From Actinomucor elegans (taxonomy: Eukaryota > Mucoromycota > Mucoromycetes > Mucorales > Mucoraceae): DNA of 64,000 nucleotides. The position numbers and the translations under genes were made by a program. Location: the NCBI GenBank assembly GCA_026027325.1, contig JAMSLZ010000002.1:1054001-1118000 (forward strand), given 5' to 3'. Positions 1,745-57,926 of the stretch are shown in pieces; the stretch's first letter is position 1; each line of letters begins with the position of its first letter. Under the pieces are notes generated by a model. That model worked only from the letters and a program-made list of their open reading frames with translations, was not told the DNA's origin and did not search any database.

Positions 1745-1828
1745 CATTTTTCACATGATCTACTAATTAGATGTGACATTGGACTGGAATTTGTCGAGAG
1801 ATCTATAGATCATTAGATCGAGGCTATA
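1745..1828 (+). repeat. GATC-palindrome repeat, copy A1
   Basis: One of the best-preserved copies of the dispersed repeat. It has the blocks TGTGACATTGGAC, GTCGAGAGATC and the perfect 12-bp palindrome GATCTATAGATC (1800-1811), followed by ATTAGATCG. The next copy (A2) begins 172 bp further on in the same orientation. Confidence 0.75.
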
Positions 1829-1916
1829 CACAATGTGTGTCCTTTATAGTCAACTGCTAAAACGTAGTACACTCATCGAAATTCACCAGATAACTGCTTC
1901 AATATATGTAATAGTC

Positions 1917-1980
1917 CATTCTGAACATGTAATAGTCATGATGCAACACTAAACTGGAATTGTTTGAGAAATGTAAAGAT
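1917..1980 (+). repeat. GATC-palindrome repeat, copy A2
   Basis: Diverged copy starting CATTCTGAACATGTAATAG and continuing through AAACTGGAATTG. The palindrome itself is lost (GAGAAATGTAAAG in its place). It starts 172 bp after copy A1 starts. A T-run begins a few bases after it. Confidence 0.55.
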
Positions 1981-2350
1981 GCTTTTTTTTTTTTTGTATA
2001 TATGAATGAAGATTTGTTAAAAATAAACTAATTAAAGGAGAAAGAAAGGCCAAGTGTGAGGAGACAGTGAATTGTCTTGAAAAAGGTTTAAGTATCTACA
2101 AAGTGTTGAAGGCAGATGTGAAGGGAAAAAAAGATGGATTTCAAAGGTATGCCTCTCAGGTATAGCTTTTTTTTTTTGCAGAAAATGAAAAACAGACAAA
2201 AGTAAAATTGTGTACTAATGAATATATTCTTTTTATATCATTCATTCGCTATGTTTTGGAAACATTGTTTTTTTATGTTCTCAAAAAAATCAAAATACAA
2301 CAGTTAGACTTTAGCGTACACTCAAGAAATTGAAATCAACCATTTTCAAC

Positions 2351-2407
2351 GCAGCCTCGGCTGATTCTAGTTTAGTCATCGCTGATGACTATTACATGTT
2401 CATAGTG
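2351..2407 (-). repeat. GATC-palindrome repeat, copy K (minus)
   Basis: Read on the minus strand it begins TATGAACATGTAATAGTCAT and continues GACTAAACTAGAATC. It is closest to copies A2 and C1. It lies 168 bp beyond minus-strand copy L in the reading direction, which again fits a unit of about 170 bp. Confidence 0.5.
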
Positions 2408-2510
2408 AACTACTGTCCTTACTAAAAATCATTACTGACTACAGTACTATGTGTTTTATTGCATTTAGCGATTGGGCTATAAAGACTTGGATTTCACATA
2501 AGTTAGATTT

Positions 2511-2575
2511 GTAGATTTTTAGATCACAATTAATTCCGCTCTAATGTCACATGTTAGTAGTTCATGTATAGAATG
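2511..2575 (-). repeat. GATC-palindrome repeat, copy L (minus)
   Basis: Read on the minus strand it begins CATTCTATACATG and continues ACATGTGACATTAGAGCGG, then GATCTAAAAATC where other copies have the palindrome. Copy K follows 168 bp further along the same strand. Confidence 0.55.
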
Positions 2576-2905
2576 AGCTATTGTATATACTAAAATATTT
2601 TTAAAAAAAGAGTGTATTCTCAATAAATGAACTTAACCCGTTATGTTTAGCGAATTTTATGTTGATCATTACACACAACACCACCGCTTCACGAACAAAA
2701 ACTTTGGATAAACTATTATGCTTATCGTATTTCAGAATTTCTTTTATTGTAGCTGTATGAAAACAGTTTATTAGCATTTACTAGAAGGAAGCAATACATG
2801 CATTAGCAGTTATAGTTATGAACGAAGAATAAAATAGAGAGTTATATACAGATTGATTACTAAGAGTTTGAAGTAAAGGGCACCTACAGCTTAAAAGGCT
2901 TGTTT

Positions 2906-4411
2906 CTACACAGTATCAGATGACTCTTCATCTTTGTAGGGAAACTTTTCTTTCTTGCTACTTTGGGTACTTTTTTCATCGTCAAAGATGCGTTGAGCGC
3001 CACCTAATCGCTTATGCTTAGCCAGTTCATCCTCGACATCCGTGCTATCATAGGGTAATACCATATTCAAAAAGATAGACATGATACCAGCAATAATGTA
3101 ACTAGTACTGACACATGTATCGACGGCTTCCATCAATCCAGCAAGCGCTTCATTTTCATAAACAGGCAATACATGATCAAACCAAGTAGGCACAATGGAA
3201 ACACCGAGCGCTAGAGCCAATGAAGCAGCAACAATAACACGGTCACGACGCGTCCAGTCCAAATAGCCTAAGATACGGATACCAGAAGTAGCCACAGAAG
3301 CAAATAAAAAGACGGTCATCCCACCAATTAAAGGAGCTGGGATGGCTAAAAATGCGGCCGAGATCTTTCCAAATACACCACAAATGATCAACAGAGTAGC
3401 ACACACAATACCCGCGCGACGATTAGCACATCGTGTTACGGCAATGATACCATTGTTCTGACTAAATGTAACAACGCCCATGCTCGTAGCCAGACCTGAA
3501 AAGACCCCCGAGATGCCATCCGCCAAAAGTCCACCTTGACATCGTTCTTCAAAGGCCTTGCCTTCAATAGGCAACCCAGAAACATCACTAGCCGCTGTCA
3601 AATCGCCTAGACACTCAATAATCATATCCAACTGCACAAACAAGAAGGGAATGATACCAGGGCCATAGACAGACCAATTGAAATGCTTGACCCACAAAAA
3701 AGTACCCACGGGAGCAGCCAAGACGCCCGAGTTATCAAACATGCCCACCGCTGCAGCAATGATACAACCGCATAGCAAGCCAATCACTACAGAAATGTTT
3801 TTAAGAAAGACAGAACCAATAAGTTCAATGAGGATGATCGTGAAAAAGACAGAGGCACCCAGTGCAAAATTGACAGGTCCACCCCAGGGCTGAGCGTTGG
3901 GTGCTTGAATGTTGGGACAGTTAACGAATTGGCCAGTAGTAGGTCGACTCATACAAGGACCAGCTCCACCGCCCCAGTTCTTCATACCGGAACCCAGCAA
4001 TGAGGTGCCAATGACGGTCAATACAATACCCATTACTATCTTGGGGAACAGTTTACGTATCATACGAGGCGGTAAGAAGCTAATAGCAATCGACAAGAGC
4101 GCGCAAACCATCTGATTGAAGTATTAATATCATTACATTTACTTGCATTCATTATACTTGCCTGTGTACCAAGGACTGCACCAAAAGCATCAGGGCAAGG
4201 TAAATGTTGGAGAGTACCATCAGCCAACACTTGAGTAGGACAGGCACCACTTTTATACATGTTCCCAATGATAGCTTGAGCAGCTGGCATATTGCAAAAC
4301 GCAACACCTGTAATTTGCAGTAAACCAGCTCCGATGTAATACTTGGTCTTGGGAATGCGTATACGAATAATCTGAACAAGGCTGAATAGAATGTGAATAT
4401 TGTGTTACTAA

Positions 4412-4452
<41 letters not shown>

Positions 4453-4999
4453 TAGAATCTTACCTCATGAGTCCAGATGTGATGAGAGAAGCAGAAACCA
4501 TGTAACGGCGTGTGTCTTCTTCCAAATTCAAAAAAGTGCTACCTTGACCAGAAATCATGATAGTTGGAGAAATAATACCCCCAATGACAGCCAAAAAATC
4601 TAGGAACAAAGGTTTAGTTAATTACTTTTTTTTTTTAAAAAAAAAAAGGCATTTATGTCATAGTTACGTTGAAGACCCATCAGAACAGTAACAAGAATAG
4701 GAATCTCATCATCAGGACCATAGAAAGGTGAGCTGTTGGCCTTTTGAGATAAAAATGGAATGTGAGGCATACTGGAATAAGCTTTTAGTGTATCAACCTA
4801 TGTAATCAATTATCTTATTTTCTTACCAAAGCGCACGGTAGTCGTAGTTACCGATCCAACCGTCCCTGGTTGACACTTTATGTTTGATTCGAGTCCAAGC
4901 AGTAGTAGGTGGGGCAGCTAGTGTGTAAAGACCTTGCATTTGCTGTACATTTTCAATCATTATTTCATCCTGAGTGTGTTTTTTGTCTGTTAATGACAT
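2906..4999 (-). CDS. Xanthine/uric acid permease, NAT/NCS2 family
   Basis: Purine:H+ symporter of the nucleobase-ascorbate transporter family (UapA/UapC-like), a plasma-membrane protein. Five exons: 4827-4999, 4668-4771, 4464-4599, 4162-4381 and 2906-4111, giving 612 aa (UapA is 574 aa). The family signature Q-N-x-G-x4-T-R is intact as QNNGIIAVTR at about residues 429-438. The upstream acidic transport motif ECLGDLTAASDVS lies near residue 377. Many hydrophobic segments are visible and the N-terminus has the YDYRALCMPHIPF entry motif. Intron 4 (4112-4161) has a GC donor (gcaagt), and intron 3 carries a 38-nt homopolymer. The start is the first in-frame ATG, 44 bp below a TATATAAAG box at 5043-5051. 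Substrate (xanthine, urate or both) is inferred from the family. Confidence 0.93.
4413..4450. repeat. Poly(A) tract of 38 bases inside permease intron 3
   Basis: Uninterrupted A on the plus strand, so poly(T) in the transcript sense. It occupies almost half of the 82-nt intron 4382-4463, between donor and acceptor. Confidence 0.95.
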
Positions 5000-5229
5000 G
5001 GTTTAGAGTATAGAAAGACAAAATAAATGTTATTTTCCATCTCTTTATATATCTTTTTATTAAACTACTATCAAACGTCTCTTGTCTATCTCGCCAAGTA
5101 ATGATAAGTTAATCTCGGGCTGTAGATACACAGTTACACCCTAGCTTTTTGATATGTAATCCCCGATTGAACTGATATAAAGCTCTTATTCGCTCCATCT
5201 CTTTCGCTTACCTTTTCTTTCTCACAATA

Positions 5230-6174
5230 ATGTTATCTATTATCTTTCTTATCACGGCTTTTGCGTTAAATCTGGTAGTTAGTACAGGATCAAATCCCTG
5301 CCAATCCCTATCAAATCAGCTTGAAATTGATGAATGTTTCATGAGAATTGCACTTGAATATGGGTTAGAACAGAACCCTCGAGCTCCTTTTGGTACTTTG
5401 ATTGTAGATCATAATACGAACTCTATCACTTGTATTGGTGTAAACGATAATAGAAAGAATATCTTGTTACATGGTAATCCAGAAGAAATATAGAGTGTAT
5501 ATATAACGCGATTAACCATTTATGTTGACAAGGTGAAGCAGTTGCATTTACAAAGTACGCTTGATTATACCTACTATAATAGAACATATCTTATCATATG
5601 AAGTAAACTATACTAACTTTATTTTAGCTGTACAGAGCTTTATCCCTCTCCCACCAACGATGACCTTTATAATCCTGGCGTAGCATGGACCAACCAAACC
5701 CTGTATACTACAGGTGAACCAGTAAGTCCATACTGTATTTACATTAAAACAATAACTAAATATTATGACATAGTGTCCTATGTGTGCTGCTCAAATTGCT
5801 TACCGTAATATCAAGCGCGTCGTATGGGCTACATCGATGAAAGATGTCAGCAAATTTGGACGTATGCCTCAGTTGACTGTGGATATGTAAGCGAATAGTT
5901 GATATATAAAAAAAAAGTCAGACTTTTTAATGCTTTATTCTGCCTTAGACATGACGTGGTTTACTCAAAAAAGGTCATGGGAAATGAACCATCTGAATAC
6001 CCAATCTTGGAAGGTGGTATCTTACAGGAAGAGTGCGACCATGCGTTTTGGTGTGCATTCAAGGACTTTAGAGACCAAGAATATATGAGACTGATGGAAG
6101 AAAATGGTGAATTGGACTATGTACTGGAGCGTAATCAAAAATTCCCATGTGTAACTGTGCCATGGAGAAAGTGA
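5230..6174 (+). CDS. Secreted cytidine/deoxycytidylate-type deaminase
   Basis: Zinc-dependent deaminase of the CMP/dCMP deaminase-like fold. Five exons: 5230-5473, 5533-5554, 5628-5721, 5774-5886 and 5949-6174, total 232 aa. The zinc/catalytic motifs are present: H81-G-E83 (H-x-E; the Gly82 codon spans the first intron) and PCPMC with C121 and C124. Residues 1 to about 19 form a typical signal peptide (MLSIIFLITAFALNLVVS), and N-x-T sites (NCT, NQT) follow, so export is likely. Exon 2 is only 22 nt. A TATAAAG box lies about 48 bp upstream. It is divergent from the purine permease (230 bp between starts), so shared regulation is possible. The true substrate (cytidine, guanine, adenine or tRNA-like) cannot be told from the motifs. 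Confidence 0.85.
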
Positions 6175-6479
6175 TTGGCTACTGAATAAATATACTATAA
6201 TACAAAAGATCTTGGTAATCTATATAGTACTGTCTTGTCTATAGAAATACACTGGATTAAACAATAAACCGTTTTTTAATGATCCATCCTGCGAATCTAC
6301 TGCAGCCAGCTGGCTATTCGTTTTGGCGTCTTTTTGACAGTCTCATCACGTGTGTATATTTAAGAGTTCAAAGAATCGGTATAATCAGGATACCTGATTT
6401 GCCTCTTTCTGTTCTTATCAGTTAAATATACTGCTTGTTTTACCCCACTTTTCATTGAGCCTAAATTAGGCTTCTTTCC

Positions 6480-6490
6480 TATATAAAAAG
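6480..6490 (+). promoter_or_regulatory. TATA box of the 2OG oxygenase gene
   Basis: TATATAAAAAG stands 68 bp upstream of the ATG and is followed by a pyrimidine-rich stretch (TTCCTCTCTTTTTTTTTC) of the kind seen near fungal transcription starts. Confidence 0.6.
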
Positions 6491-6557
6491 GGCTTGGTGC
6501 CCCCCCAATATCGTGTTCTTTTCCTCTCTTTTTTTTTCACTTTCACTTATCTTATCA

Positions 6558-7670
6558 ATGAATGATTTCATGAGGATCGATTTATCAAATTTCGATAATC
6601 GCAAAGAAGAGATCTCTCGGGACTTGATGAAAGCAGCCTCAGAACATGGATTCTTTTATGGTAACTGATCAATCATCCATTGCTACAGTTATAGTAATAC
6701 TTTTATTAGTCGTGAACCATGACATCTCTATAGAGGATATTCGTGCCATGTTTGATGCTAGCCATTCTTTTTTTGAACTATCTGAAAACACTAAAGAAAA
6801 CTACCTGATGGATTACCCTCGCAATGCCGGATGGGAAAAATTATCGCAGGTATAAAATAATAGGGTGACAAAACATAATTGAATTAGCGCAACCTAATCA
6901 CTATAATACCCAAGATTCGCCCTTCTACAGGTGTAGCAGACCTTAAAGAATCAATTCAGCTCACCTTTCATAATTCATCCGACTTGAGACCCACAGAAGA
7001 TGATGCACCAGGCTTTGATACAACTGCAAATATCTTTATGGAGCAATGCAATAATGTATCTCAACAGCTGCTTATCTGCTTTGCCATTGGCTTGGGATTT
7101 CCTCAAGACTTTTTTACTCGATGCCATGATATTAGTCAGCCAGACTGTCTCAATTCGTTGCGCTGCATGCGTTATTTCGAACACAAGAATCAAACACAGC
7201 AAACCAAATCATCTAACATTGGTGCCTGCCGCGTCGGTGCTCATTCAGATATCAACACCTTTTCATTGCTTTTTCAAAAGCCTGGTCAACGCGGTCTTGA
7301 AGTGTTTCATGATAATGAATGGACTGCTGTTTGTCCTGCAGAAGGCGAAATCGTTTGCAATGTCGGTGATATGATTGTGCGATGGTCTGATGATCGTCTT
7401 CAAAGTAAATCGCATCGTGTTAGAAGTCCTAGTGCTGAAGAAGAAGAATATCAGGGTCCTCGATATGCACTTGAATACATTAATGAGGCTAACCGATCCG
7501 TCATTATCCAAGGTCGTACCAAATATACCCAGCCCATCACTGCCGGTGAATTCCTCATGATGGCTATGGAAAAGAATTACAAAAAGACTTTGAAACCAAC
7601 TACACAAGATAAAGATAATGCCAAATCAGATGAAAAGAGCGTGTCTCCACCTGTTTTGGTCTCTGTCTAG
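6558..7670 (+). CDS. 2-oxoglutarate/Fe(II)-dependent dioxygenase
   Basis: Non-heme iron oxygenase of the isopenicillin N synthase-like/plant-type DIOX group. Three exons: 6558-6660, 6710-6849 and 6915-7670, 332 aa. The N-terminal DIOX_N region reads AASEHGFFYVVNHDIS across the first splice junction. The iron triad is H191-x-D193 (GAHSDINT) and H248 (SKSHRV). The 2-oxoglutarate-binding arginine is probably R264 in PRYALEY, where most relatives have R-x-S; here the third position is Ala. The NVGD motif before the distal His is typical. Cytosolic, with no signal peptide. The substrate is unknown; no biosynthetic cluster surrounds it. Confidence 0.9.
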
Positions 7671-8592
7671 ATTCCCTTATTATATTTTGTTGTAGATAGA
7701 CTTTTTTTTTATCTTTACGTTTATTTCTTTTCTTTAAAAAACAGAATCTTGCGCGGGATGTTTCCATTGTGCCCTTTATGCGACTCGCTGAATAGCAAGC
7801 CTGTACATTTTTTTTTCTATATTCTAATCTCTTATTTATTATCCTTCCGTATCATCTATCCTCTTCTTGTTGTTTTTCTTATTAAAACGTTTTATTTCTT
7901 CAACTAAATAACGGTATATTTCATATAAGCAGATCAATTGTAATAAGTCGATCATCTTAAAATATTGTAGTGCAAGCCTTACGTTGACATATCAATATAC
8001 AGTCTAATTTACTAAAAAGAGCATTGCTATATATTTTCTCCGATAATTATTGATATATTTCGATGCATTATTGAATTGGGTATGATTTAGTGAGTATAAC
8101 GAGGACCAAGAGCTACTAACCACTTTTAAATCCCCGGTATTCCTGGTATATGTACCTCTAATGTTTACATAAGCCTATGCTTAACAATTCACACTAACTA
8201 ATTAAAACGAGCTTTATTGTTTCTATATTTTTTTTAAAGGCATTGGTATATCTTGGTCTTTTGTTGATTTATACCCGGTTTTGCGATTTTAATGGGACCA
8301 TTGATTCAATTGCCGCTTTAATGTATGCATTACAACGCACATTGACCTCTGGCGCCTGAGTATATTGCTTTATTTTCAGGGCAGCAATACTATCTCAATG
8401 AACAATTTGCTTACTATACTTTTTCGAGAACTAAAACTATAGCTTAGCCTATTATTGAGCTGATACAATTTTGCAATTTCAAAGTAGTAGGGATATATTC
8501 AATCTCCGGCAATCAATGAAACAAGCAGGCCTATCCTTCAGTACTCGTCAACGTGATGAATGGTTTTGGTTCTTTCTTGTTTGAATATTCCA

Positions 8593-8623
<31 letters not shown>

Positions 8624-9797
8624 AGTAAGGCATACCATTTTATTGAATTTTTGCATACGCTCATACATGTTGCATTTTTTTTATTGAAAACGTCAAAATC
8701 GTTTATTTGATCCGATATAGACTACTAAAACTGATGCTATGCATACAAAGAGTATAATTGTACTTTGTTTGGTTTCAAATAGACAGACAGTATATTTCTG
8801 AACCCTGATTGTTAGGCATCATTATATTGAGTTCCAACGTCATCCAAACTTATATTTAACTTGATATAGAATATAGAGTAACATTTACTCTCCCAAGTGC
8901 AGAATCGTAATCCAGTTGACGGTGGGAATTTCGCAAGTGGGGACCCTTAATATTACAAATACGTTACTTGATTAGATACTTTGGCACATTCTACGATTTT
9001 CTTTGTTTTCTACGTATACGCTTGAACTTCTGAAGATTCTATCTTATGCACAATAAACAGATGGTTCATGCGTGCTATCTATAGATCGGATCCAGTCAAT
9101 TGATTCTCTATCTAACACAAAACCATATTGACGTGGTTTCATATATGGATGTGGCATGGGAAATATTGATAGAGTATGGCTCTTAAAAAGGACATCAACT
9201 AGGCTTAACTCAAGCTGAATAAACTTAAGTTATAATATAGAGGGTATATCAACTCTTGCGAGAGTTATCGATAGCGGAGATGGTGTTTGAATAACCAGAA
9301 TTTGCATACAAATACGTGGTATATTACAAGATTGTTTATAACCATATTGTATTTGAATATATGAGTTATCTCGTTAATACAGGTTTATAAGTCGTTTTCC
9401 AGTTATATACGCCCTTTCTAGCTGTTTACATTATGCTACTAATAGGCCCTTCTATATTTGAATGGCCAAAAATAGCTGAACTTAAAGGTCATTCGCTTCC
9501 GGCTTTTGCTTTTGAAATGAATCCAGTACCATCACCATCTGTTTCTGTCATATCAAAAATAAACACCCCTTAAGCAAACCACTATGTCTGGCTCACATTT
9601 TCTCTACGCTAGTTCACACACACACACACGCCCTCTCTCTATTTTTCCATTGAGTTATATCTCCTACTAGAGAATAATTTTATGATATCTTCTTTAAGGT
9701 TGAGATTCATGATGAGTTCAGTGATGTGTATAAGCGAAGCGAATCGCTACACATTCTTTTTTTATAGATTTTCTTAAACTATCATTAGGCTCAGTAA

Positions 9798-9870
9798 CTC
9801 ATTTTGAGTATGGGCCTCTAATTAGAAGCAATATTTGACCGAGATCAACTGAGATATATATATTGATAGT
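9798..9870 (+). repeat. GATC-palindrome repeat, copy I
   Basis: Reads CTCATTTTGAGTATGGGCC, then ATTTGACCGAGATCAACTG, then GAGATATATATATTGATAG, aligning block by block with the better copies. It is the first of four copies spaced 172, 158 and 172 bp. Confidence 0.6.
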
Positions 9871-9969
9871 TTGTTCTAAGTTGTGTAAAAATCTGAATTA
9901 TTTGCAGTCGATTATGAATTAATATAATATATTGAATATACTAAAGATTAGCAAAGATTATAATAGATA

Positions 9970-10035
9970 CATTCATTACTATTTGGAGCGGTCATTATTA
10001 CATTTGACTAAGATTATCTGAGAGATCTATTGACC
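9970..10035 (+). repeat. GATC-palindrome repeat, copy J
   Basis: Contains ATTACATTTGACTAAG and then ATCTGAGAGATCTATTGACC, the latter matching the palindrome block with one change. It starts 172 bp after copy I. Confidence 0.6.
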
Positions 10036-10127
10036 TATAAAATTAGATAACTGATAGTTAAGTATTGACAATTAAAGTAATCTGATAGTACCTTTACTAG
10101 GAAATCATTACAACACATTCATTAAAT

Positions 10128-10188
10128 TGTTCTGAGCATGAAACACGTATCCTATGCGGCAATTGGCTAGAATCAAGTAAGAGATATA
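10128..10188 (+). repeat. GATC-palindrome repeat, copy M
   Basis: Reads TGTTCTGAGCATGAAACAC, then GCAATTGGCTAGAATC, then AGTAAGAGATATAC. It is recognisable mainly through CTGAGCATG and CAATTGG at the expected spacing, 158 bp after copy J. Confidence 0.5.
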
Positions 10189-10299
10189 CTGATTGTTAGA
10201 TCTAGCTCCTATGAAATACATGCATTTTATAATCAGTCATTAAAATATGATGAATTTATAGCACTTTAGTCAAATAAGGCTTCTATTAAACGCAAAAGT

Positions 10300-10359
10300 T
10301 CATTTTAAACATACATTAATTATCAGATGTGATCCCAGAAAATTTGTCAAGATATCTCT

Positions 10360-10363: not shown

Positions 10364-10399
<36 letters not shown>
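10364..10399. repeat. Poly(T) tract of 36 bases
   Basis: Uninterrupted T-run adjoining the 3' end of repeat copy O. It may mark an element boundary or be an independent homopolymer expansion. Confidence 0.9.
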
Positions 10400-10400
<1 letters not shown>

Positions 10401-11944
10401 TGAAGAGATAGATGGTTAATAATATAATGACATCATAAAAACCGATATCATGGATGGGCATATATCACATAATTAACTTTGTTTCATCAGCATTGGTATT
10501 GCTTGTCGTTCTTAACTAATGCCAATTGACTCCACTCTGACTTCCGATGCGATGCTGTTGACCGTAGAAGAAAAACCGAATCGTTGATAGCTGTAGTGGA
10601 TGATACTCAAGATGAGGGCTTGTAGTAAAACTTTTCAAACGTAGTTAAATTCAGACTTCAATATGTATGAATTTTTACATCTTGTATAGTGTGCCCAAGT
10701 TCGACTGTTTGCGCTTAAAGCTGGTCTAACTGAATGTGCTTAAAAGTAGATTGTTTCGATGTAGCTGCTCTCATCGTTGTCTTTATCCAATCTGTTACAG
10801 TTGTAGATCTGACTGACGTTAAATGGCACTTTCTTTTTCTAGGTACATCGCAGACAGTAGAGTACGAAATTTTAGCTATTAGTTTCTTATTTTCAAGGAC
10901 ACTTTTTTTTTTATTAAAGTGCATGAGAAATTGATAATCTTATTGATTATTATATGATAGTAGTAGATGTGTTGAGCAATACAAAGAAAAGACTGGTATA
11001 AATGAAAAACTTGAGACAAGAAAATCTTGGGAGCGCTAAACAAATCTATATTATATGAATACCAAGAAAAGTTGAATACTGATTATGGATTAGGTAATGC
11101 ACACACATTGGATAGTGAATCACAACAAGTAGATAAAGTAAGGGGACCGAACCCTTATACATTTTATAAACAAGGTGTACATGCCAACTATTATTCCACT
11201 TTAGTTATACTCCAAAACCCTTGAGGGTGAAAGAGCACATTGGATTGCTAGTATTTCTAGAATAAACAGTACCTAAAACTTGCTTGACGTCAGTAAATTG
11301 GATTAGTTTCTTAGATTAAAAAAACGCTTATTATAATCCATAAGCTAGCAATCTTGAATATCTAGGACTATTCAAAATGAGATATACAGACAAAGAGTTA
11401 GTCAAATCCCTTTTCATAGAATAATAAAAACATTCAATACTTGACTTCTTTATTATTTAAATGCACTACTCTCATCTATAAACCACTTCTTTTGTTTTCT
11501 TATAGCATGCACTTATGTGACGCAAAATGACACCCTTTTCTCGTTCAATTCACTTCAATAAAGTGAATAGGTGGTTTCAAGGGGTCCAGCTTAGAGACCA
11601 TTCAGCATCTGATTGAAAAGTGTTTTGAGAAGCCTTTTGAAAAGCCATACCCATACGAGATTCTAATTAATAGCAAAAACGTTAGAGGTTTTAATGAAAA
11701 AATGGGATAGATTATTGTTCAGAGGTGAAAACTACGCGAAAAAAAAGCGTTTTGAATGGGGTATAAATGAAAAGAAAACATGTAGACAAAGCTATAAGCG
11801 TATATAAGCTTGTTGCGCAGCAATAGCACATAAACGTCATCTTTGACATAATGATAGAAGTTATAATATTGACAAATGGCCACATATTATCCAATGCAAT
11901 GATAGAACTGGAAAAATATATTGAGTTTCATCTGACACATCAAT

Positions 11945-12020
11945 TTATTCTAAGCATGGAATACTAATCTGATATGATATTGGACCGAAATCGATCAAGG
12001 GATCTATAGATCATCATACG
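11945..12020 (+). repeat. GATC-palindrome repeat, copy B
   Basis: Well-preserved single copy with TTCTAAGCATGGAATACTA, TATTGGACCGAAATCGATC and the perfect palindrome GATCTATAGATC at 12001-12012. No tandem partner is recognisable at +/-170 bp. Confidence 0.7.
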
Positions 12021-13546
12021 CTATTTTTATTTACTTATTTTAATATTGCTATTGTTATTAAATGAGTATTTATTGAAGGGTCGACTATCATCTTCTAGAT
12101 TATAGCTATTACCAGAGTGGTTCACAGGTAAGACGGCTACAAGGTGCAAATAATGGACTGTGTTGCAGTAGACATCTAAAGAGAAGGAGGTATGGCAGGT
12201 ATACAGATGTAATGGTAAGTCCAAGTTTTTTGAAATATAGTGCCTATCAATTGAAGATGGCAGTTAATGTATTTTTGAGGCAGCTCATCAGACTCTGGGT
12301 CATTATGGGTAGGCCCTATGGATCTATCTATCTCTCGATCGGCCTCATTTGAATGCCATACCCAAATAGAATGAACTACTACATTTATTATAGCACCAAA
12401 AATGGCTGTAGAAGACATGCAAATAATTGAGAACATGATCTATTCATATTAATATTGATCTCCATTAACCCCCTCTCTCCATCCCTTTATGTCTAATATA
12501 TGTAAAATGAAATACATTTCTTTAGGTTTTTAGCATATACAGCAAACGCATAACGTGAAAATATGTTTTTTCAAGTTATGGTGTTTATAACTAAGGTAAA
12601 ATATGTTCATGAGATATATAAAATCAAGATTTGGTACCCTACTAGAAATATCATTGTGTTCATTTTGTTCGACTTTTACTCGAGTTTCATTAACAAATGA
12701 ATGGTTCCAAAGACCGAGTAGTATTATATGTAATAGTTTTGTTGAGATACGCATACTAAATCAAAGGTCCCTTTTTTATTGTAAATTGATGTTTATTGAG
12801 AAATATATTATTTTAATTACACAATGCTGAAAGGCGCAATTAGAAACGAAGTGGAGGAAGACAATAATGCAAATATAGAGGAGATTTAAATATAAGACAC
12901 TAAGTTAATGTTGAATAAGAGAGAAAGCAGATGAAGTAAGGACAAGAATAAAAGTATCATGAACGATCCTCCTCAGGATTAGGAACCAACCTATTTGCCT
13001 GGAGATGATTTGAGATGGAACGCAATATTGAGTAAAAATGACAGCTAAGTGGACATATTGATAAGCTGTTTGTTAAATTTTCCATAGGGTAGTAGAAAGA
13101 ACTGAGAAATATATGGATGTCTTATAAACGCCATGTTGATATATGGGGGGAAGCATAAACTACATAGTATTTCAGGAGAAATGGAAAGTAAGGGAAATTA
13201 GTATGCCAGGATTTTGTATAAGAGCTTTTATTTGGGAGCCTACTCAACCTGGAAATGTTCACATACATGGCATAAAGCTAAAGATACAGTACCTAGATTG
13301 TATAGAAGCTGGCAAGTTAGGAATGCAACCGGTGGTTGCTTTAAAGTAAATAAAGGTTCCTGGATTGATTTGTTGCCAGTCAAAAAACGTCCTTGGCCAA
13401 TGAGATTTTGCTCTCAGATGCGAAATATCAAAGCTGACAATTGCAACAATTTCTTTTCTTTCTTTTCTTTGTATATGTACATATATATCTAAGATAGATA
13501 AACACTTTTTTCCTATTACATATTTATAAACAAGTACATTTTCCTC

Positions 13547-16180: not shown

Positions 16181-17988
16181 ATATAGCTTCTATTTTACTT
16201 TTTACAATACTGAGGTAATAAAACTTTGATTGATTGTTTCATCATTGTTCTATAAAAGGCAGGGAATGGCTACTTATGAACCTTAAACCTAAATTTTCTA
16301 AAATTGCTCATTTTTTATAGAGCACGATGGCAACATTTTAGAAATATAGTAAATTACTAATGTCAGTCCAGTATATTATTGCATATGTAAATACTCTTTT
16401 TTTTTAGATTTTACTGTACACCGTATATTTAATAGCTGTATTTTTTTAAAAATTAAATTTATCACATATAAATCTATTAATTGAACGAAGTATATTTAAT
16501 TTTGCACAATTCGACGCATAATTGAATCTTGGAGTATAAATTTTGCTAAGGTTCTCAGCATTGACATTTTTTTAATATTATTAAATGAACAATGAATTCG
16601 AAACTCAGAACAAGAAACTATTATTCCCGAGGTTTGAGCGAGCTTTAGCATAAGAATGTAATCCTAAATCAGTTACAACCAATAGATATTGAGAATACTT
16701 CGAACAGCTTGCATTTATATCATTTTTTGACATGGAAGCATTTATAATCATAATTCCTAATGCGGCTTGGGTCTGTATAGTTACAAACATATAATAATTG
16801 TATAAAAGGTAACATAGCCCAAACTAGCAAATTTAAGGAGGGGCGTAGCTTCCAAGTTAGACGCAGCCAGTTGTCTGATATTTAACAAGCCATAACAACC
16901 ATTTTTTTTTAATTGCATATCACACTATCTCATTGATATTTGTCTTTTAACCTGTTTTTGAATTCCACTATTAGTTTGGAAGCGTATATAAGGCAGAATC
17001 ATCACTCAACTAAAGTACAATGAATGCATTGTGCCTGATAATGGATTTTAGTAAACTTTATACGCATATACTATTGTAGCTACTATCTAACATTAAAAGC
17101 CTACTATAATCTTGAACAAATGTCAATTGATACTGCTAATACCTTGTCTTTGTAGGACTTCGAATGGCTCGACCCTGAAGCCCTTTTATAACTTTTTCAT
17201 AATTCGGATGCGACCGTGATTCACCAAAAAACAGCGTTAAATCGTGTTATATACACGTTTTATAATCCAATTAATACTCTATATAGTACATTACTTGCCC
17301 AAAAAGACCAAATATAGACTGCCAAGGTCGCGGTTGGAAACGTACAATTGCACTGTAAAAGGCATTAATATGGATATTTGCATAGTAAAGGTCTTCTTAA
17401 GGAAGCGAGAAATAAGTATGTTTATATAAACCCTGCCTTGTCAAGTGTGGTGTTACCTTTGAGTGCTTTCAAGTTTCTTTGTATGCAGCTTCTTCTTCAT
17501 GCTGTGTTATGCTAACTTGAGTATCACCCTCGTTTCCTCCTGCAAGCAAGTTCTTTTATGGTAATATAAAAAAAAAGTCATACGTTGGTGTTCGATCTTT
17601 TGTTCTTATTCATCTGTATTGAGTTGGTTGTTTAATTATATCAAGGTGTCGGTGATCCAGACATAACCATTCGGATATACTGTCGTCTTTGACAGGATAT
17701 GTCACAATTGTGTTGTATATAAACGCGTTTAATAAGGATATATACGGTCTTGATGGCATGTACATTTTTTTTTAATTAGATATAACATGTTATATATAAC
17801 CTTATAATCTTACCAATGTAACTTTTTTCTAATGAGGATCGCACGTATTATCAATATATAGTCAAACATCCAAAGGCCCCTCAGGTTTCAATTGAGAACA
17901 TCAGTCTATTTACCCCTTTAATGCCCTTAAATTTATATATAAGCTTTGTGCTTCTTTCTTTCTCTTTTAAACCATTTCTTTCTTCGCT
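16181..17988. other. Intergenic, aldo-keto reductase to disordered-protein gene
   Basis: About 1.8 kb without a supportable gene. Short open stretches at 16605-16790 (minus) and 17244-17429 are not convincing. A TATATATAAG box at 17934-17943 probably belongs to the next gene. No copy of the GATC-palindrome repeat was found here. Confidence 0.5.
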
Positions 17989-22518: not shown

Positions 22519-22527
22519 ATAGTTTGT

Positions 22528-35495: not shown

Positions 35496-35580
35496 AGTCT
35501 GGTTTATATGAAAGGTATGAAATCAGTTGCAATCATTGGAGACTTGAACATATCTATTATATTCCAGTAGATGCAGCACT

Positions 35581-49228: not shown

Positions 49229-52200
49229 CTCTTTGTCTCATTTTTTGTTATAAATACTTTTTTTGCTTTTTCCTATCAATCCATATCATCATCATAAAAT
49301 ATAATATAATAAAAAAAACCCCCTGCTCTTTCAAGCATAAAACTCTGCATTTGCTTCAAACATTACGACAAAACGAAGCTTCAGCTGAGTATAGAATTTT
49401 TGGAGTGTTCGTTAGTACAAAGACCTCCAGAATGAAAGAAAGCGAACTCGATCTACTTTTTAGTAAAGCTCCAACTGATACGTTGTCATCTTATTCTATG
49501 TACTACATATCATGTGCCATTAACCGAAATTAGTTAAAATATATTGATCATTAGATAATGGGCTACTAATTCTTATTCAATGTAAAATGTTCATTGTGTT
49601 AATGAGGCCTTGTAACTGTATGGATAAATATGGCAATATTAACTAAAAACATCTCAATGTACAATAGTGTATGTGTAACACGCGAAACATGTTACACGGG
49701 AAGCGATCAAAACTTTAATATACTTTTTTTTTTTTACTTCTACGTTATTCTTTCCTTTTTTTTGCTAAAAAGCTATGTAATAACTTTTCAGTTGATATTC
49801 CGGCAATGAGTTCTGTGGTTGCAAAAGTGATTCAAGGATGGTCTCTAAGAAGGTATAAATAGGGCCCTATTTTTATCTTTTCTTTCGCTTTTTCATCAAA
49901 AAAATAAAATGGACAGACCCTTTGATTAGGTTGACTACCTGAAATAAAAAATTACTGAAATTGGTTGACTTCTTTCATTATTGAGTTTACTTAATCCACA
50001 AACTGTCTTAGAAAGTGCTGTTCTTTTTCATGTCTTTTTTTTTTTGGGTAGAAAAGATGTTTATCCTTGTCTTTAAAGGAAGGGAAGGCATCTTCCTTTA
50101 TTTACGAAAGTGAAAGGCTGTCATTTATTTATTTTCTTCTCTTTTACAAAAGGTTGGTTTTTACTTTCCTCGCTTTTTATAAGGAAAAACTATTGTTTTT
50201 TTTTTCTCAAATCGGATCAAGACTTGAAAATGATCACAATACAAATAAAGTCGAATATAATGAAAAAGTTGCCCCCAACGTAACCTATAATTCGATGTAA
50301 CAAGCAAGATTTGTTTACAACAATGAAATTACTAAGAATATCAGTTGTTTAAATTGCCATTGTAATAATGTTCGCCTAAACTATACAGAAATGAAGCAAA
50401 ATATATGAATATTTAACAAGATTTATATTTTATACATAAAAATTTATTGGGATGTTGATTTAAAAATAAAGACTTTTACTAAATAATAATCAACATATCA
50501 ATCTGTTTCATTCAGCGTTTTTGTATCATTTCCTTTGGAACGGTTGAGTGTAGAGAGTCGTTATAAAGAATAGACGTAATAGTAGAAAATATCTTCAAAT
50601 CTCTTTTTTTTTGAGTGATTTATTTTAAAGCAACATAGACTTCAAGATGCATCTATATATTCTCTATTAAAACCGCTAAAGGAAAATGGTATAATGCAGT
50701 AGGTATTATTAGGCAGACAAAATGCTGTCTTATATTTATAGCAACTGATAATAATCAAGAAGAGAGAAATTGAGTAGCATACAGCTGTATATAAGAGGCT
50801 TACTATTGCAAAACAAGAAGTACAAAAGCGTATAGATCGCAAGATAACACATTTTATTAGAATATCATTGCGCTCTTTTTTCATATTAATCGAAACTGCT
50901 GTAATTTGCTGACAGATAATATACTGTTATTGATGCTCATCTCCTTATAAAAATTAAACGTAACTAATTATTCACCACTTCAGTATGAAGCCTCTGCCAC
51001 AGACCCTCTTCTACCTTATCAAACGATGTTTCTCATAGTTAGATGTTTGACTCACACTTTATAATTCAACTGAACTAGATTTGAGCGAACTCAATGAATT
51101 ATGAAGTGCCTATGCTATTTCCAGAGGAGGCAGTTTTTTTATATATAAAATCCTTAACTTATTTTATTTTTTTTGATATATGGTATCCCATGAAAATGAG
51201 TTTATATAGTTATAATCCCAATAAATGATCTTTCTGCCCTTCTATATGCCTTTCAATTTTATAGAAAATTTGTTGGTACTATTTGTTGTATACCTGCGTT
51301 TGTCTTTACAGTTCCAATGAAAAATTAATTGTTTGGACCCTGAACAGACGTCATGTAGCGGGCTGCATTATTTTTCAAATCTATACTATCCAATACAAAT
51401 TGGAGTGTTCGCGTTACAACAATGATGTACATTATTATACTAGAGGTAGATACTATAATATAATCTTGCCTTGTATACATTAAAGTATATGTCCATATTT
51501 TTGTTGTATTTTTCCAGTAATTTAAGCCACGCAACTTAGCATAAAAGAGGAATCACAAGTAAATTAGACAAGGATCTATCCTAGTCTTCAATATGGTATT
51601 CCTGAGTATACATCTCGTTTGAAAATGATCCAAACAGTCCTTTGATATAAAATTTCTGAGGCAGCAATTTTCAGTGATGATATACCAAAACTACTAGATA
51701 CATATTGTTAATTCAGTGATTAATATCAAAATTACTATTAGGCACAACTGATACGTAGCAAGAACAAAGACAAAGAAATAGGAGCATCAAGTGTCTTATT
51801 AGATGAAAAATTAACTAAGGATAATAATTCCAAGGGGCACTATAATTGCCTATAGCTTTTTTTTTCAATAGAGATGCAAATGGCCTTATCCTTTACACAA
51901 AAAGACAAATGTTTCGCAAACCTTACTTTGTACGAATCTCTGAATAATTGCTATGTAAAATAATGGTAGTATGCATTGGTGCGCGCTATCATACCGGGTC
52001 CTCGCACACATAAGTCGCTAGTTGCTATATAATTTTTACTATGTGTCTTATTATGATTAATTGTATTGTATCGTTCCTCTGTTTATCACTACTATTCTTC
52101 CAAGGGGATTAAGCCATTCAACTCAATTAACTTACTCTTGTCGTATCAAAGCTGCTGTTAATACAGTTGGTCTTCAGATTACAGTTATTAATTATGTTAT

Positions 52201-52370
52201 GTTTCAGATTTTCCAACATGCTAACTCTAACAAAGAAAGCTCAACTCATTAATCTATCGAATTGGTAGGTATGGGTATAGCTAGTACCATTATACTTTCT
52301 TTAAAGAACGGAAATAGACCAATATTTATTATAATATACATATAACATAGAAAGTAAACTATATTAACAT
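49229..52370. other. Gene-poor tract, HUWE1 to SET-domain gene
   Basis: No gene supported in about 3.1 kb. A promoter-like GTATAAATAG at 49853-49862 is followed by a pyrimidine-rich leader and an ATG at 49908 that opens only six codons. One repeat copy lies at 49490-49560. Other open stretches (50067-50300, 50642-50884, 51283-51534) look random and AT-rich. Confidence 0.45.
49490..49560 (+). repeat. GATC-palindrome repeat, copy H
   Basis: Reads TTATTCTATGTACTACATA, then ATGTGCCATTAACCGAAATT, then ATATTGATCATTAGAT. All blocks are in order and at the right spacing, but it is moderately diverged. Confidence 0.6.
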
Positions 52371-53006
52371 TTAAGCGTCACGCTTTTTGATGAGCTCTTG
52401 GATATGATTACTTAGTTCAAATTGCTTCAATACTTCGGTAGGAAGATAGTGAGCACCTTGAACAGTTTCAATACACTAAATAAAGCATTAGTAATCATCC
52501 TTTTTCATTTTATTTATAGAGTTTACTAACCTTTGATGCACCACACCAACAAGAGAATGGTTGAGCTATTATAATTAAAGTATGTCGATCAGATTATTGT
52601 TTCTAAAAAAAATTATGTTATACGGTAGCTTACCCATATCCCATTCCGTGGAGGGGTAGAAGAACGTCAACTCATCGCCCGCAGCAAGATCTCTTGTAGC
52701 AGACACAACCATACGATCCACATCCATAAGAGTTGAAGGGTTACATGAATGATTCATAAAGACAAGGTCACTATTTAATTCAATGTGTTCTGTTTCTGAT
52801 ATTTGTACAGTAGAATAGCGCTTCGCTCCTGGAGTAAGGCCTTCCAAGGTGGCAATAGTTGCGCCTTTAGGGAATGCGCGCACTGCGACAAGCTTACTAG
52901 AGAAAGATTCAGGAGGACCTTGACGAACGACCTTGAAATCACTGGGATGTGTTGGCTTACCGTTAATGATTATATCACCGTAGTTTTCAGGAATTGTATT
53001 GGGCAT
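52371..53006 (-). CDS. Small SET-domain protein with post-SET
   Basis: Putative lysine methyltransferase-type protein of only 170 aa. Three exons: 52634-53006, 52531-52565 and 52371-52475. SAM-binding motif NHSCNP is at residues 85-90 and the catalytic-type Tyr in GDELTFFYPSTEW at 117. The post-SET zinc motif C-W-C-x4-C at 130-137 is split by the last intron, and a short helix follows (NHIQELIKKRDA). The pre-SET region is absent and the SET-N part is abbreviated. Similar stand-alone small SET proteins occur widely in fungi; substrates are mostly unknown. The TATAAAAGA box about 65 bp upstream supports the start. Activity is inferred, not certain. Confidence 0.88.
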
Positions 53007-54797
53007 AGTATGAAGATGGATAGATTAACGGGAAAAGAAGGTAGATGTAATAAAATTTAAGGCATCTCTTTTATATGATTGATTAGAGCTAGCGACAAGT
53101 GGGGCCCGAATGAATAGCGATTTCCTCACATCATATTGGCTTACAGAGTCAACGGCGCACAACCCCACAACCAAATGTAGAGATTTGATGTAGATACTCC
53201 GATTCTTGTATGTCATCGTATATAATGGTAACATTATTGACTTTTATAGTAATCTCTGTACCAAATATGATGGAAATCTTGAGACACAAACCCGAATTAA
53301 ACAGCAGATCTTTCTTTAACATTAGTCCTTAATCGTGTACCTCCAAAACGATACGCTAATGGAGTTAAAACTCCATAAAATATCTTTGGTAACCCTTTTA
53401 CATTACCGTTGAACATTCTTATGTTTTCCATCTAATATTTCTCATTCAATACTTAGTCTAAAACATGTAGATTTTGTAAGTCGGTTTGAAAGCTACTCGG
53501 CATTCCATAGTGGAGAAGGGTACTACGCAGCAGTTTTATTTAGACATAATCATATCAATGATTCACCTGCTTCTAGATTTTGAAACGTGCAAAATATCAA
53601 ACTAGAATGGCTGCTACAGTATGCGAAAGGATGATTGACATGTAGTAATATATATAGTTTTTAGCCTAATATATTCATGAATAAAGAGTGTATAGATAAT
53701 ATTAATATAATTGCACATCATGCTACAAAGATTCAAGGGTCAGAAATCAATCCTGGACCTTAATAGCTGTAGTGTATGCTATATCAAGAGATACTTTTCC
53801 ATTCTACATTGATAATATACTACTTGTGTGCCATTAAATGCGTATGTATGCATTGATGATTGCATCTTTTCAGGGTTTTGAATTATATGAATTAAAATAC
53901 AAATAGAATCATAGCAATATCCTACACCCATTCAATCAGTGTTACTGTGAACTAAAAGTAACTTAATGATTTAATCTAAAGAGGAGAGTTTGTTATTTAA
54001 CCTTAAACAAAGCAGGTTCTCTTAAGTAAAGGTGGCCTCTCAACAATTAAACCCAATAGGTAAATCATAACCAGTGAAAAAAGGAGCTAAAAGCATTTAA
54101 AGATGTCCTGTGATGCTTTGGATTATCAATTAATAAGCGAATATGTTTGGATTAGTCAATGTTATAATAAACAATAATATGAACTTGGTTTTTAGCTGAA
54201 GAAGTGAAGTTGTATTTCTTTTTCCAAGATTAATAGGATACATGAGTCCTTTCCAGCTCTGGTGTACATAAATATATTTAAACGCGCCCATCTTGGTTGG
54301 ATAACGTAACTAGCTTTCATGGAAATACATTCTTTAAAATCTTCGAATAACGCTGCTATATATGAAGGGTTTAAGAAACCTTTTTTTGTTACTGAATTAT
54401 GTTAGTAACATCGATTTGAAATCATGAATAGTGATGAGCAAAACCTAAGGATACAGACAATTTATTAGATGTGTAACACCAACGCAATCCTAATTCATGC
54501 TAACTTTCCTCATAGCACAAAGATTGAGATTATCTGAAAACCTTAATCACTACAAGAATATTTACAAATGATCCCAGTTCAAGCATAGCCCAAAAAATAG
54601 AGTTCTTTATTAAAACACACCTGACATATTAATAATACATCGAATGTTTATATTACTCTATCCAAAATCAATGAAGTGACAAACGATTAGTGTTCAGAGG
54701 TTGAACCCAAGCATACTACAGAACTGCAAAAATTAATAAGGCAGTTCTTCAGTCTGCGCTACATGCACTATAACAAACGAGCAAAATCAAAAAAATA

Positions 54798-54869
54798 TTC
54801 CCTGACGGGGAATTGAACCCCGGCCGCGTCGGTGAGAGCGACGAATCCTAGCCACTAGACCATCAAGGA
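54798..54869 (-). tRNA. tRNA-Glu (anticodon CTC)
   Basis: Minus-strand cloverleaf of 72 nt. The acceptor stem TCCTTGA pairs with TCAGGGA with one G-U. The B-box region is GGTTCAATTCC and the T-arm is CCGGG/CCCCG-type. The anticodon stem CGTCG/CGACG closes the loop CTCTCAC, giving anticodon CTC. No intron. Downstream in transcript sense lies a T7 run (54787-54793), a Pol III terminator. Confidence 0.93.
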
Positions 54870-55418
54870 CTTGTTGATATATTAAACAATAAAATCTATA
54901 TGTCACATTAATTTAAAGCAAGCACGTGATTTGCCGTGTTTCCGATCCAATTAAAACGATTATAAGATTCTGAGTTTGTATTTTTGTATTGTCCTCGTTC
55001 AAACATTGCCTAACAAAATCGATTTATTAATTGTTTCTATAGATTTGTTGCGGGGATGGGACAAGTAACTTGAACAAGTTTTAGCTAGATAAAATAAGCC
55101 CTTGAGATGCTCTTATTGCCATAATAATACAAATATCTGATCGGCTGAATGAAAAATTAAACAATCTCAAGTACCTAAAACCTGCTATTATTATTCATCA
55201 ATATAGGGGTTCTAATAAAAGCATTAATATATTTCAAACAAATACCATTAATGATATGTACTGTTGGACTGAGGTTAGACTATAGTTCCATTTATGATTA
55301 TTATTAGAAATTATTTTATCCATATATATGTTATTCATAAAACCATTGTTGATAATAGAAATGTAGCTATTTTAATTATATTACAATTAAATAATGTCTC
55401 TGGTAGATGTATAAACTT

Positions 55419-55490
55419 ATTCTGAGTAAGTAATAGGTATTAGGTGCGGCACTGTATCGAGATTATCGATCGAGAGATCTATAGATCATA
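55419..55490 (+). repeat. GATC-palindrome repeat, copy D
   Basis: Reads TATTCTGAGTAAGTAATAG, then CGAGATTATCGATCGAGA and the perfect palindrome GATCTATAGATC at 55476-55487. The linker after it contains CACTTTAGTCAAATAA, shared with the sequence before copy O. Confidence 0.7.
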
Positions 55491-55711
55491 TTCATATAAA
55501 ACATATGTCATTTACAATTAACCTTTAAATATAGTAAGCCCATAAAACACTTTAGTCAAATAATACTTGTAATATGACCAATGATTGAATTTGGACATAC
55601 ACTGATCATCAGGCATAACATTAAATTAGCGTCAGTCGAGGAATTAAGAGATGTTAAAAATAACTAGACTCCAAAAAATCAAGGTCATCCTTTTGGGCTT
55701 AAATGCTTTAC

Positions 55712-55716
<5 letters not shown>

Positions 55717-55747
<31 letters not shown>
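55717..55747. repeat. Poly(T) tract of 31 bases
   Basis: Uninterrupted T-run in the gene-poor tract, about 230 bp after repeat copy D. Confidence 0.9.
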
Positions 55748-55748
<1 letters not shown>

Positions 55749-57521
55749 TAGAGCCCAGAAACGATGTTTTCAAGGCATAACTTGATGCCGTAGGTTGTAA
55801 CCCCTAGAAAGTATACATTTTATATACATATACGTATATTAAAATATTCAAGCTATTAAAAATCATACTTATCACAGATAACTCAATCATTTGACAAAAA
55901 TGATAAGTAATTTTTGCACTACAGGATGCATGATTAAACTAAACATGAGCTTTAATAAAATATATTATAAATATTGATATTGCTTTGCTATAAAAAGTAA
56001 TATAAAAGTCCTTACAAAAGAATACTAAGTGACTCTGGAAAACGTAGTTCATTTCTGATAGCCAATAGAGATCGAAGTAATCCTATAATATAGTGATGAC
56101 ATGCATTTAAATTTGATTTTTGATGGTATTAAGGCTTTTTTCGAGACATAGTGTATAGTACAATGTAGTTTACAATATTTGAAAAAAAATCTATTTAAGT
56201 ACATGCATAAACACCGGGTTAGCATAATGCGGTTATCAGATGCTTAATAAACCATATCAATATTTTTACACATCTTTTCAATTCTATAATATTTAATGCC
56301 ACTGATAATGTTCAACCAGTTTGTTAACTTCCCTTATAATGACTCTTAAGGTAATTAATATCACTTAGCAGATAAAAATAACGTATCGTAATGTAATGAT
56401 AGCTTGCGTATAACATAGCTCAGTAAAAAAAACCAGTACTGTTTGCTATTAATACAAGTTTTGTCTCTATTCAATAAAGAAATTATGAATATAGTGTGTC
56501 CAAGAATGTTTTTGGCTTTGATAATCCTCTATAACAGATCTTTTGCATTGGAGTATCCATATAGCCAATTTGAATAAAGTTTTATTAACGGTAACAGCAG
56601 AAAATCCAATCTAGTGCAAAAATTATTGGGTAAGCAAATAATTTTCAAATAAATCACAAAGGAAAATATGCATTTCTGTATAAAACAACTTTCAAAATTG
56701 TATATAATAAATTTTCATGTACTAGAGATAGCATATTTTTAAATACGAAAAATGAATGGGTTTACACAGATGGTTCACATTGGTATTGCAAAATTATGCG
56801 TAACTTAATAATGAGTTAAGGAACATCAACAATTTCCCAGAATAATGTAGAACGGTTTTTTATAACCATATTCATCAATACGAGCGGATGCTAGAGGCTA
56901 ATATACTCTGAAGTCTGTCTAATCAACAACAAACAGGCGTATCTCCCACTGGTTTTTCGTATGCTAACAAGTTAAAACAAAACTAACTGGTATAGCGCTT
57001 AATCCCAAGCAAGTAGCTTGTATTCTAGCGAGTTTTAGAAGGCATTCAAGTTGAATTCATATAGCTTCCCCAAAAAATGCGTCTGATAACAATAATCGAG
57101 CAACCGTTCTGCAAACTCAAACTATAATTATATTTCAGCTACTTGTACCTTTTAATGAATATTCCAAAATTTCTCACTCAATCCTTATCCAGTACATTTG
57201 TTTTGAAGATTAATATTTTCGCAACCTGGTTCACATGATATTGTAAAGCAAAATAACTTTCCAGGACCGTAATGTTTTTCTACGAGAGATATCACTCACT
57301 GATACAGATAGAGCTAACTGTAGATGTCGAACGTGATTCGGTAATTTCTTTTGTATTATAGTTGTAATGTAAAAAAAAAAAATCGGAGTGTGTGATGTAT
57401 CTAATTTCCCAACAAGTTATTAGATAATATGAAACGTATGTCGTTCATGGGTTAGCTATTGGTGATTAAAAAAATACATCAATTGACTGCACTTAAATAA
57501 TGGTTATATGGATCAAACAGT

Positions 57522-57600
57522 TCATTCTAAGCATAAAATACTAATCAGATGTGAGATTAGGCCAAGATCGTCAAAGAGATCTATTGATTATTAGGCTCTA
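57522..57600 (+). repeat. GATC-palindrome repeat, copy E
   Basis: Reads CATTCTAAGCATAAAATACT, then AATCAGATGTGAGATTAGGC, then GTCAAAGAGATCTATTGATT. It is very close to copy B in the left half. It is the first of three copies spaced 168 and 172 bp. Confidence 0.75.
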
Positions 57601-57689
57601 GATTAGATTGAATACATGTCTTTTAGAAACTAACTATTAACAAAATATCCCTTTTAAAACAGTTAAATATCAGTTCTAATAGATTTAGT

Positions 57690-57760
57690 GGCTCATACAG
57701 AGTATTTGCTAGACAATAGATGTAATTTCAGAGTGATCTGTAGAAAGATCTATAAATTTA
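57690..57760 (+). repeat. GATC-palindrome repeat, copy F
   Basis: More diverged: GGCTCATACAGAGTATTTG, then AGAGTGATCTGTAG, then AAAGATCTATAAATTTA. Position and order fit a tandem unit, 168 bp after copy E. Confidence 0.5.
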
Positions 57761-57861
57761 AATGTTTTACATGAATTGTATGTAATTTACCATCTGGCAT
57801 CATTATGTAATGCAAGTGCCCTAGTTCAGCTAAATAATTGCTCTAGTGGTAGGCATAGTAT

Positions 57862-57926
57862 TTCATTCAGAATACGCACTACTACTAATCAAATGTTACA
57901 TTTGATTTTCGATCATAGATCTCATG
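57862..57926 (+). repeat. GATC-palindrome repeat, copy N
   Basis: Reads TTCATTCAGAATACGCACTA, then AATCAAATGTTACATTTG, then TTTTCGATCATAGATCTC. It starts 172 bp after copy F. A GATATACTCATAG linker follows at about 57968, similar to the one after A1 and C2. Confidence 0.55.

Follow-up and report, generated by a model that had tools for sequence, protein, structure and literature searches.

The window analysed here is a 64,000-nucleotide stretch of the Actinomucor elegans genome (C12:1054001-1118000; genome of 36.5 Mb, 27 contigs) in which copies of a degenerate repeat family lie outside the long open reading frames (ORFs). The original prediction, made from the letters of the window, had listed about 17 diverged copies that share ordered sequence blocks around a GATCTATAGATC core. 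We searched the window with 150-column unit profiles, which were started from the BLAST matches of one unit and then iterated, and with a held-out profile built solely from copies outside the window and used with a cut-off of 15 bits. The held-out profile found 19 window units at or above 15 bits (top score 79). The control named beforehand, 20 dinucleotide-shuffled versions of the window, gave none (top score 8.9), and neither did 322 kb of reversed sequence (top score 5.9). Sixteen of the 17 listed copies were recovered in this way (E<1e-3 with the full model), and the 17th, at 49490, was marginal at 14 bits; three window units, 12305-12394(-), 55198-55301(+) and 55548-55670(+), were absent from the earlier list. 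The features of the window are given below, where a tail is the conserved stretch 3' of the last unit of an array and X is another dispersed repeat.

1707..2611, unstranded: imperfect palindrome, putatively a foldback-type copy (a pair of inward-facing units and an inner region, then a tail and two units in inverted orientation)
1719..1833, +: repeat unit, exact GATCTATAGATC at 1800; 83 bits (held-out model 79 bits)
1867..1991, +: repeat unit, tail-adjacent type by sequence; 63 bits
2157..2398, -: tail of the inverted arm, starting within the last unit; tail profile, 87 bits
2356..2453, -: repeat unit, tail-adjacent type; 40 bits
2485..2605, -: repeat unit; 58 bits
9782..9884, +: unit 1 of a 4-unit array; 55 bits
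9928..10051, +: unit 2 of the 4-unit array; 34 bits
10083..10222, +: unit 3 of the 4-unit array; 57 bits
10255..10357, +: unit 4 of the 4-unit array, then a run of 36 T; 52 bits
11924..12036, +: type C repeat unit lying 3'-terminally in repeat X, exact GATCTATAGATC at 12001; 77 bits
12305..12394, -: repeat unit, inverted relative to 11924..12036; 34 bits
16280..16831, +: tail without a detectable unit, and downstream continuation; tail 52 bits, continuation 80 bits
32441..32538, -: single repeat unit; 47 bits
35388..35517, +: repeat unit; 70 bits
35561..35674, +: repeat unit; 63 bits
49498..49560, +: marginal match at the earlier-listed 49490; 14 bits only
55198..55301, +: unit 1 of a 3-unit array; 29 bits
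55373..55489, +: unit 2 of the 3-unit array, exact GATCTATAGATC at 55476; 67 bits
55548..55670, +: unit 3 of the 3-unit array, tail-adjacent type; 45 bits
55596..56237, +: tail and continuation behind the 3-unit array; tail 101 bits, continuation 102 bits
57484..57600, +: unit 1 of an array; 75 bits
57646..57763, +: unit 2 of the array; 40 bits
57823..57921, +: unit 3 of the array; 33 bits

Units, arrays and unit types

The repeat family is real, abundant and ancient. Its unit is ~170 bp long and is arranged head to tail in short arrays of 1-5 units, with 34 of 39 unit spacings falling between 138 and 187 bp and 31 of 39 between 149 and 178 bp. The ordered blocks described earlier are real, but they form part of this larger unit, and many of the singly listed copies are members of arrays (four units at 9782-10357, three at 55198-55670 and three at 57484-57921) or of a mirrored pair (1719-1991 with 2356-2605). 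We measured abundance in 264 kb of unselected sequence, consisting of the window and 20 ten-kilobase stretches at set places, and left out loci L002-L020 from the density and the unselected 12-mer counts because the query by which they had been chosen contains the exact 12-mer GATCTATAGATC. The unselected sequence held 62 units in 32 arrays, 15 with one unit, 8 with two, 6 with three, 2 with four and 1 with five, and with the iterated profiles 14 of the 20 stretches, as well as the window, proved to contain units. If this sample is representative, the 36.5-Mb genome would hold ~8,000 units, or about 4% of its length (extrapolated from 62 units per 264 kb). Five stretches at contig ends (L021, L030, L031, L037 and L038; 50 kb) contained no unit, compared to 43 units in 15 internal stretches (150 kb). 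BLAST with one 160-bp unit against the genome returned at least 20 matches, counting the query itself, spread over ten contigs; with a 751-bp four-unit query there were at least three, again counting the query. A search by identity is thus a poor tool for this family. None of the 62 unselected units lay by more than half inside a stop-to-stop frame of at least 150 amino acids (19.5 expected), in keeping with the earlier placement of the copies outside genes, and the claim of a diverged family of unassigned repeats located outside long ORFs is supported.

The perfect 12-bp palindromes reported at 1800, 12001 and 55476 were borne out. Allowing up to two mismatches, the 12-mer matched the window 16 times (3.9 expected; 0 of 100 shuffles reached 16), and exact copies occurred at 228 places genome-wide compared to 2 for the reversed control. 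Among the 37 unselected units in which all 12 columns were aligned, however, just 3 had the exact GATCTATAGATC. Rather than being the element itself, the 12-mer represents the consensus over a single stretch of the ~170-bp unit. As a core it stands for the inner unit type only: the consensus of units adjacent to a tail reads GAAATGTAAAGATG at this place, and conservation spans the unit and ~210 bp of tail. Comparison of 24 tail-adjacent with 61 inner units revealed differences in many columns, including column 107 (A in 17 of 19 tail-adjacent vs 12 of 54 inner units, p=3e-7) and column 95 (A in 19 of 23 vs 15 of 57). Identity within types exceeded identity between types by 0.038, a value reached in 0 of 1000 label permutations. 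Local expansion at individual sites would hardly yield a last unit ordered in this way. At the other end of the arrays, first units matched the consensus at 0.32-0.41 over columns 1-20, compared to 0.45-0.55 in later units, and the two were about equal from column 33 onward, which puts the outer end of the arm roughly at column 20-30 of the first unit.

Divergence was high throughout. Across 58 unselected units, median divergence from the consensus was 32% of core columns, mean pairwise identity between units was 55%, and the best pair from different loci reached 76% over 84 columns (among pairs with at least 70 core columns); two units within locus L047 were identical. Transitions outnumbered transversions (2255 vs 1337), and decay directed at CpG was rejected, as transitions numbered 345 of 1029 at CpG and 1043 of 3482 elsewhere, hardly any CpG signal. 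Palindrome columns matched the consensus at 0.74, compared to 0.66-0.69 for the rest of the unit, and the 12-mer was jointly intact somewhat more often than independent decay predicts (8 vs 1.8 expected of 85 units; 3 vs 0.9 expected of 37 unselected units). This small excess may stem from the existence of unit types and from the choice of loci, and the first part of the tail has an information content comparable to that of the unit; the data thus give no clear sign of selection.

Tail and mirrored copies

The conserved stretch 3' of the last unit carries the motif AAGGGTATACCCTTAAGCCCAAATTTT. Its profile has 271 positions, of which the first 60 lie within the last unit, so that the tail runs ~210 bp past the unit. 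A 24-letter tail pattern with up to three mismatches occurred at 26 places in the genome, compared to none for the reversed control. Within the window, tails were found at 2398-2157(-), 55596-55857(+) and 16280-16432(+), the last without a detectable unit. In some pairs of copies homology extends ~350-600 bp beyond the tail start; no sharp border emerged when the element's far end was sought, and the profile of this continuation is partly contaminated by mirrored arms. Runs of T were observed at 10364-10399, at 55717-55747 and from 1982 onward; in these three arrays they directly follow the last unit or lie within ~50 bp of it.

Neighbouring arrays tend to face each other. Because same-strand arrays less than 350 bp apart were merged by definition, only the comparison of convergent with divergent pairs is fair; among 15 pairs of neighbouring arrays no more than 1.5 kb apart, 13 were convergent (tail to tail) and 2 divergent (back to back; P=0.004 against equal odds). 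BLAST recovered an inverted-repeat alignment of the arms in 9 of the 13 convergent pairs. The window copy pairs 1707-1960 with 2364-2611 in inverted orientation (63.7% identity, E=3e-19). We folded copies as RNA and calculated z-scores from 12 shuffles each, with a separate fold of the window palindrome against 20 shuffles. The window copy (1707-2611) had z=-4.5 with 12 shuffles and z=-6.7 with 20, all seven of the 13 convergent copies that were folded had z-scores from -2.9 to -60, and four random stretches had z-scores between -0.3 and 1.0. Locus L047 forms a 90% palindrome over 828 columns. Its positions 1204-2020 (C26, near 1034048-1034852) constitute a near-perfect, repeat-made palindrome with arms that are 98% identical over 332 bp, which, although the other copies are old, points to an inverted duplication or a gene conversion of recent date.

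Proposed foldback-type relics and alternative explanations

We favor, with a probability of roughly 0.55, the interpretation that an old non-autonomous transposable element of high copy number, belonging to a Mucorales fungus, left these copies behind as relics; it would be of foldback type, with internally repetitive inverted arms. Arrays of 1-5 tandem ~170-bp units are internally repetitive in the way of the arms of foldback-type transposons, of which the family is a candidate member. One arm would comprise an outer end, 1-5 tandem units, the distinct last unit, the ~210-bp tail and some 150-400 bp more, and complete copies would have carried a second arm in mirror image. A transposase made elsewhere would move the element, by analogy with Tetris and Galileo; unit number would vary through unequal exchange, and loss of an arm by deletion would leave solo arms, so that single arms would be products of decay. 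The anatomy of the copies (units, arrays, position-dependent unit types, tail and mirrored pairs), their divergence and their avoidance of long ORFs are observed; movement as a DNA transposon with a transposase acting in trans, an ancestral two-arm state and long inactivity are what we infer.

Several results weigh against this interpretation. Only 7 of 27 tail-bearing copies in the sampled sequence had an inverted partner and 20 had none, although many loci extend just ~1.5 kb to either side. In unselected sequence alone, convergent pairs numbered 4 and divergent pairs 1. No inverted alignment of the arms was detected by BLAST in 4 of the 13 convergent pairs (L017, L036, L042 and window 11924/12394), and all eight single arrays that were folded lacked a palindrome (z between -1.9 and 1.3). 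The palindrome center varies between copies, lying at tail position ~416-425 in 3 of 6 (L023, L044 and L009), ~300 in L046, ~260 in the window and ~207 in L047, and the outer terminus is approximate. Sixty positions of the tail profile fall in the last unit, which makes the test of unit types partly dependent on tail detection; even with this caveat, an array-end unit of distinct type points to multi-unit elements that were copied whole. Eight regions 3' of tails contained 31 sense frames of at least 55 amino acids, and none of the 10 scanned had a transposable-element domain. Finally, the MULE transposase domain PF10551 had no genome match at E<=0.001 in a search that ignored introns and was positive in 3 of 14 control genomes, a result compatible with a transposase that may have been lost later. 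The P-type transposase PF21787 likewise had no match, but this search is uninformative because all 14 control genomes also gave none.

The most serious alternative, which we regard as possible but clearly less probable, is a directional element, in which the stretch from the units through the last unit and the tail to the downstream part would form one end of some other decayed transposon, such as the promoter monomers of an element like a long interspersed nuclear element (LINE) or an internal tandem repeat, and the mirroring would be secondary. The variable number of units and the special last unit recall LINE 5' monomers. The 20 of 27 tail-bearing copies without an inverted partner fit this explanation, as do the continuation of single-arm homology for ~350-600 bp beyond the tail start and the absence of a hairpin from all eight folded single arrays. 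It is less compatible with the 13-to-2 preponderance of convergent neighbors and with the downstream frames. The clear domain matches in the 10 scanned frames were a FAD-binding domain (L035) and WD40 (L033, below curated cut-offs), both in frames that we read as probable host genes. No reverse transcriptase domain was found in these 10 of the 31 frames, but copies could have lost it.

We consider it unlikely that the units are functional intergenic elements under selection, either dyad protein-binding sites or modules of nucleosome length. Their position outside long ORFs, the 12-mer that is intact more often than under independent decay and the array spacing, mostly 149-178 bp (31 of 39) and hence close to the nucleosome repeat length, would suit such a role. 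The excess of intact 12-mers is small, however, and can be explained by unit types and by locus selection with a query holding the 12-mer; moreover, palindrome columns (0.74) are little better conserved than others (0.66-0.69), the first part of the tail is about as informative as the unit, and the tail-adjacent type lacks the 12-mer. Still less credible is dispersed satellite DNA, in which units would have been amplified locally and then scattered. Head-to-tail units of similar length recall a satellite, but arrays in the unselected sample (32) have no more than five units, mean pairwise identity is 55%, long homogenized arrays were not encountered, and Tandem Repeats Finder lists no such array in the window. 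As unit types follow position relative to the tail, we rejected this explanation. Units with internal dyads, standing in short tandem arrays, might also suggest a family of structured RNAs or self-cleaving ribozymes in tandem, which we think has almost no chance of being correct: folding of an alignment of 70 units gave 0 consensus pairs, and scanning the window as well as 10 loci against Rfam showed only a tRNA and matches far below threshold. With no consensus structure and no Rfam family near threshold, a structured RNA was rejected at this sensitivity.

The proposed foldback-type element can be compared with known systems. Miniature inverted-repeat transposable elements (MITEs) are non-coding, intergenic and high in copy number, with some hairpin-forming copies, and the fungal repeat shares all of these properties. 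Unlike in MITEs, its arms are much longer and built of tandem units, and no short terminal repeat was identified. Most foldback elements seem to belong to the Mutator superfamily, and those listed in PMC4079207 come from animals and plants. Tetris, from Drosophila virilis, is a foldback transposon whose arms contain a variable number of ~220-bp tandem repeats, with target-site duplications of 8-10 bp and a flanking external domain that can reach 866 bp (PMC4079207). As described there, Tetris resembles the fungal repeat in having inverted arms of tandem repeats with an inner domain, a middle without apparent coding capacity, rearranged copies and no transposase found. By description, the comparison available here, the fungal repeat differs from Tetris in its ~170-bp unit, in the single arm of most tail-bearing copies and in having no outer domain shown. 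Galileo, a Drosophila element of the P superfamily, has ~210-bp tandem repeats in the arms of one subfamily, and solo arms have been described (PMC3573991). Long inverted arms and the occurrence of both two-arm and solo-arm copies are common to Galileo and the fungal repeat; Galileo has copies with a P-type transposase (PMC3573991).

For Mucorales genomes, repeats have been reported to make up 20% of the Rhizopus oryzae assembly (PMC2699053) and 4.7% of the Lichtheimia assembly (PMC4133162). The passages on repeats in these papers name long terminal repeat (LTR), LINE or non-LTR, DIRS and DNA elements, with no mention of tandem-unit or foldback repeats. The suggestion that the element is undescribed held within a search of open-access papers, which brought up no fungal element with such arms; an entry in Repbase or Dfam, or a paper behind a subscription, lies beyond the scope of this search and may describe it. 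A bolder proposal, which we judge improbable, is an undescribed foldback superfamily of early-diverging fungi, with position-specific ~170-bp modules, that once colonised much of the intergenic DNA of this genome and whose arms were since co-opted, either as intergenic modules acting in promoters or chromatin or to supply the RNA interference machinery with hairpin RNA. A profile of the family would aid intergenic annotation in related moulds and the dating of an old wave of transposition.

Neighboring elements

The dispersed repeat X, which is at least 2.5 kb long, carries one unit type at its 3' end. Copies of X in the window (10844-12026), L005, L011 and L053-L054 are mostly 67-81% identical to each other, and matches include several on contig C12 at 0.53-0.93 Mb and a few on C1 and C22. 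X was rejected as a coding body: substitutions were spread fairly evenly across the codon phases in 6 of 7 alignments (44/21/21 in the other), and 19 of 65 gaps were multiples of three, giving no consistent coding signal. X may be either an outer part of the element to which the units belong or the host of a unit.

A 379-bp inverted repeat in L036 (656-1025 and 3622-4000; 97.6% identity) was considered as a pair of young terminal repeats and rejected, as it belongs to two opposed copies of another element. A frame of 1306 amino acids in L036, 3828-7748(-), has a weak phage-integrase match (E=2e-4, below the Pfam cut-off), and no reverse transcriptase domain came up; this element may be DIRS-like. 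Right behind the 4-unit array of the window, 10364-10760 is a relic 65% identical to the ends of the retroelement-like repeat of L036. Positions 3065-4173 of L024 contain dense, self-inverted and mutually overlapping repeats ~1 kb long without a unit. The window also encodes a MUS81-like protein; the named fungi among the relatives, Cokeromyces included, are Mucorales, and identity is 81% to a metagenome protein and 57% to a protein of Mucor circinelloides.

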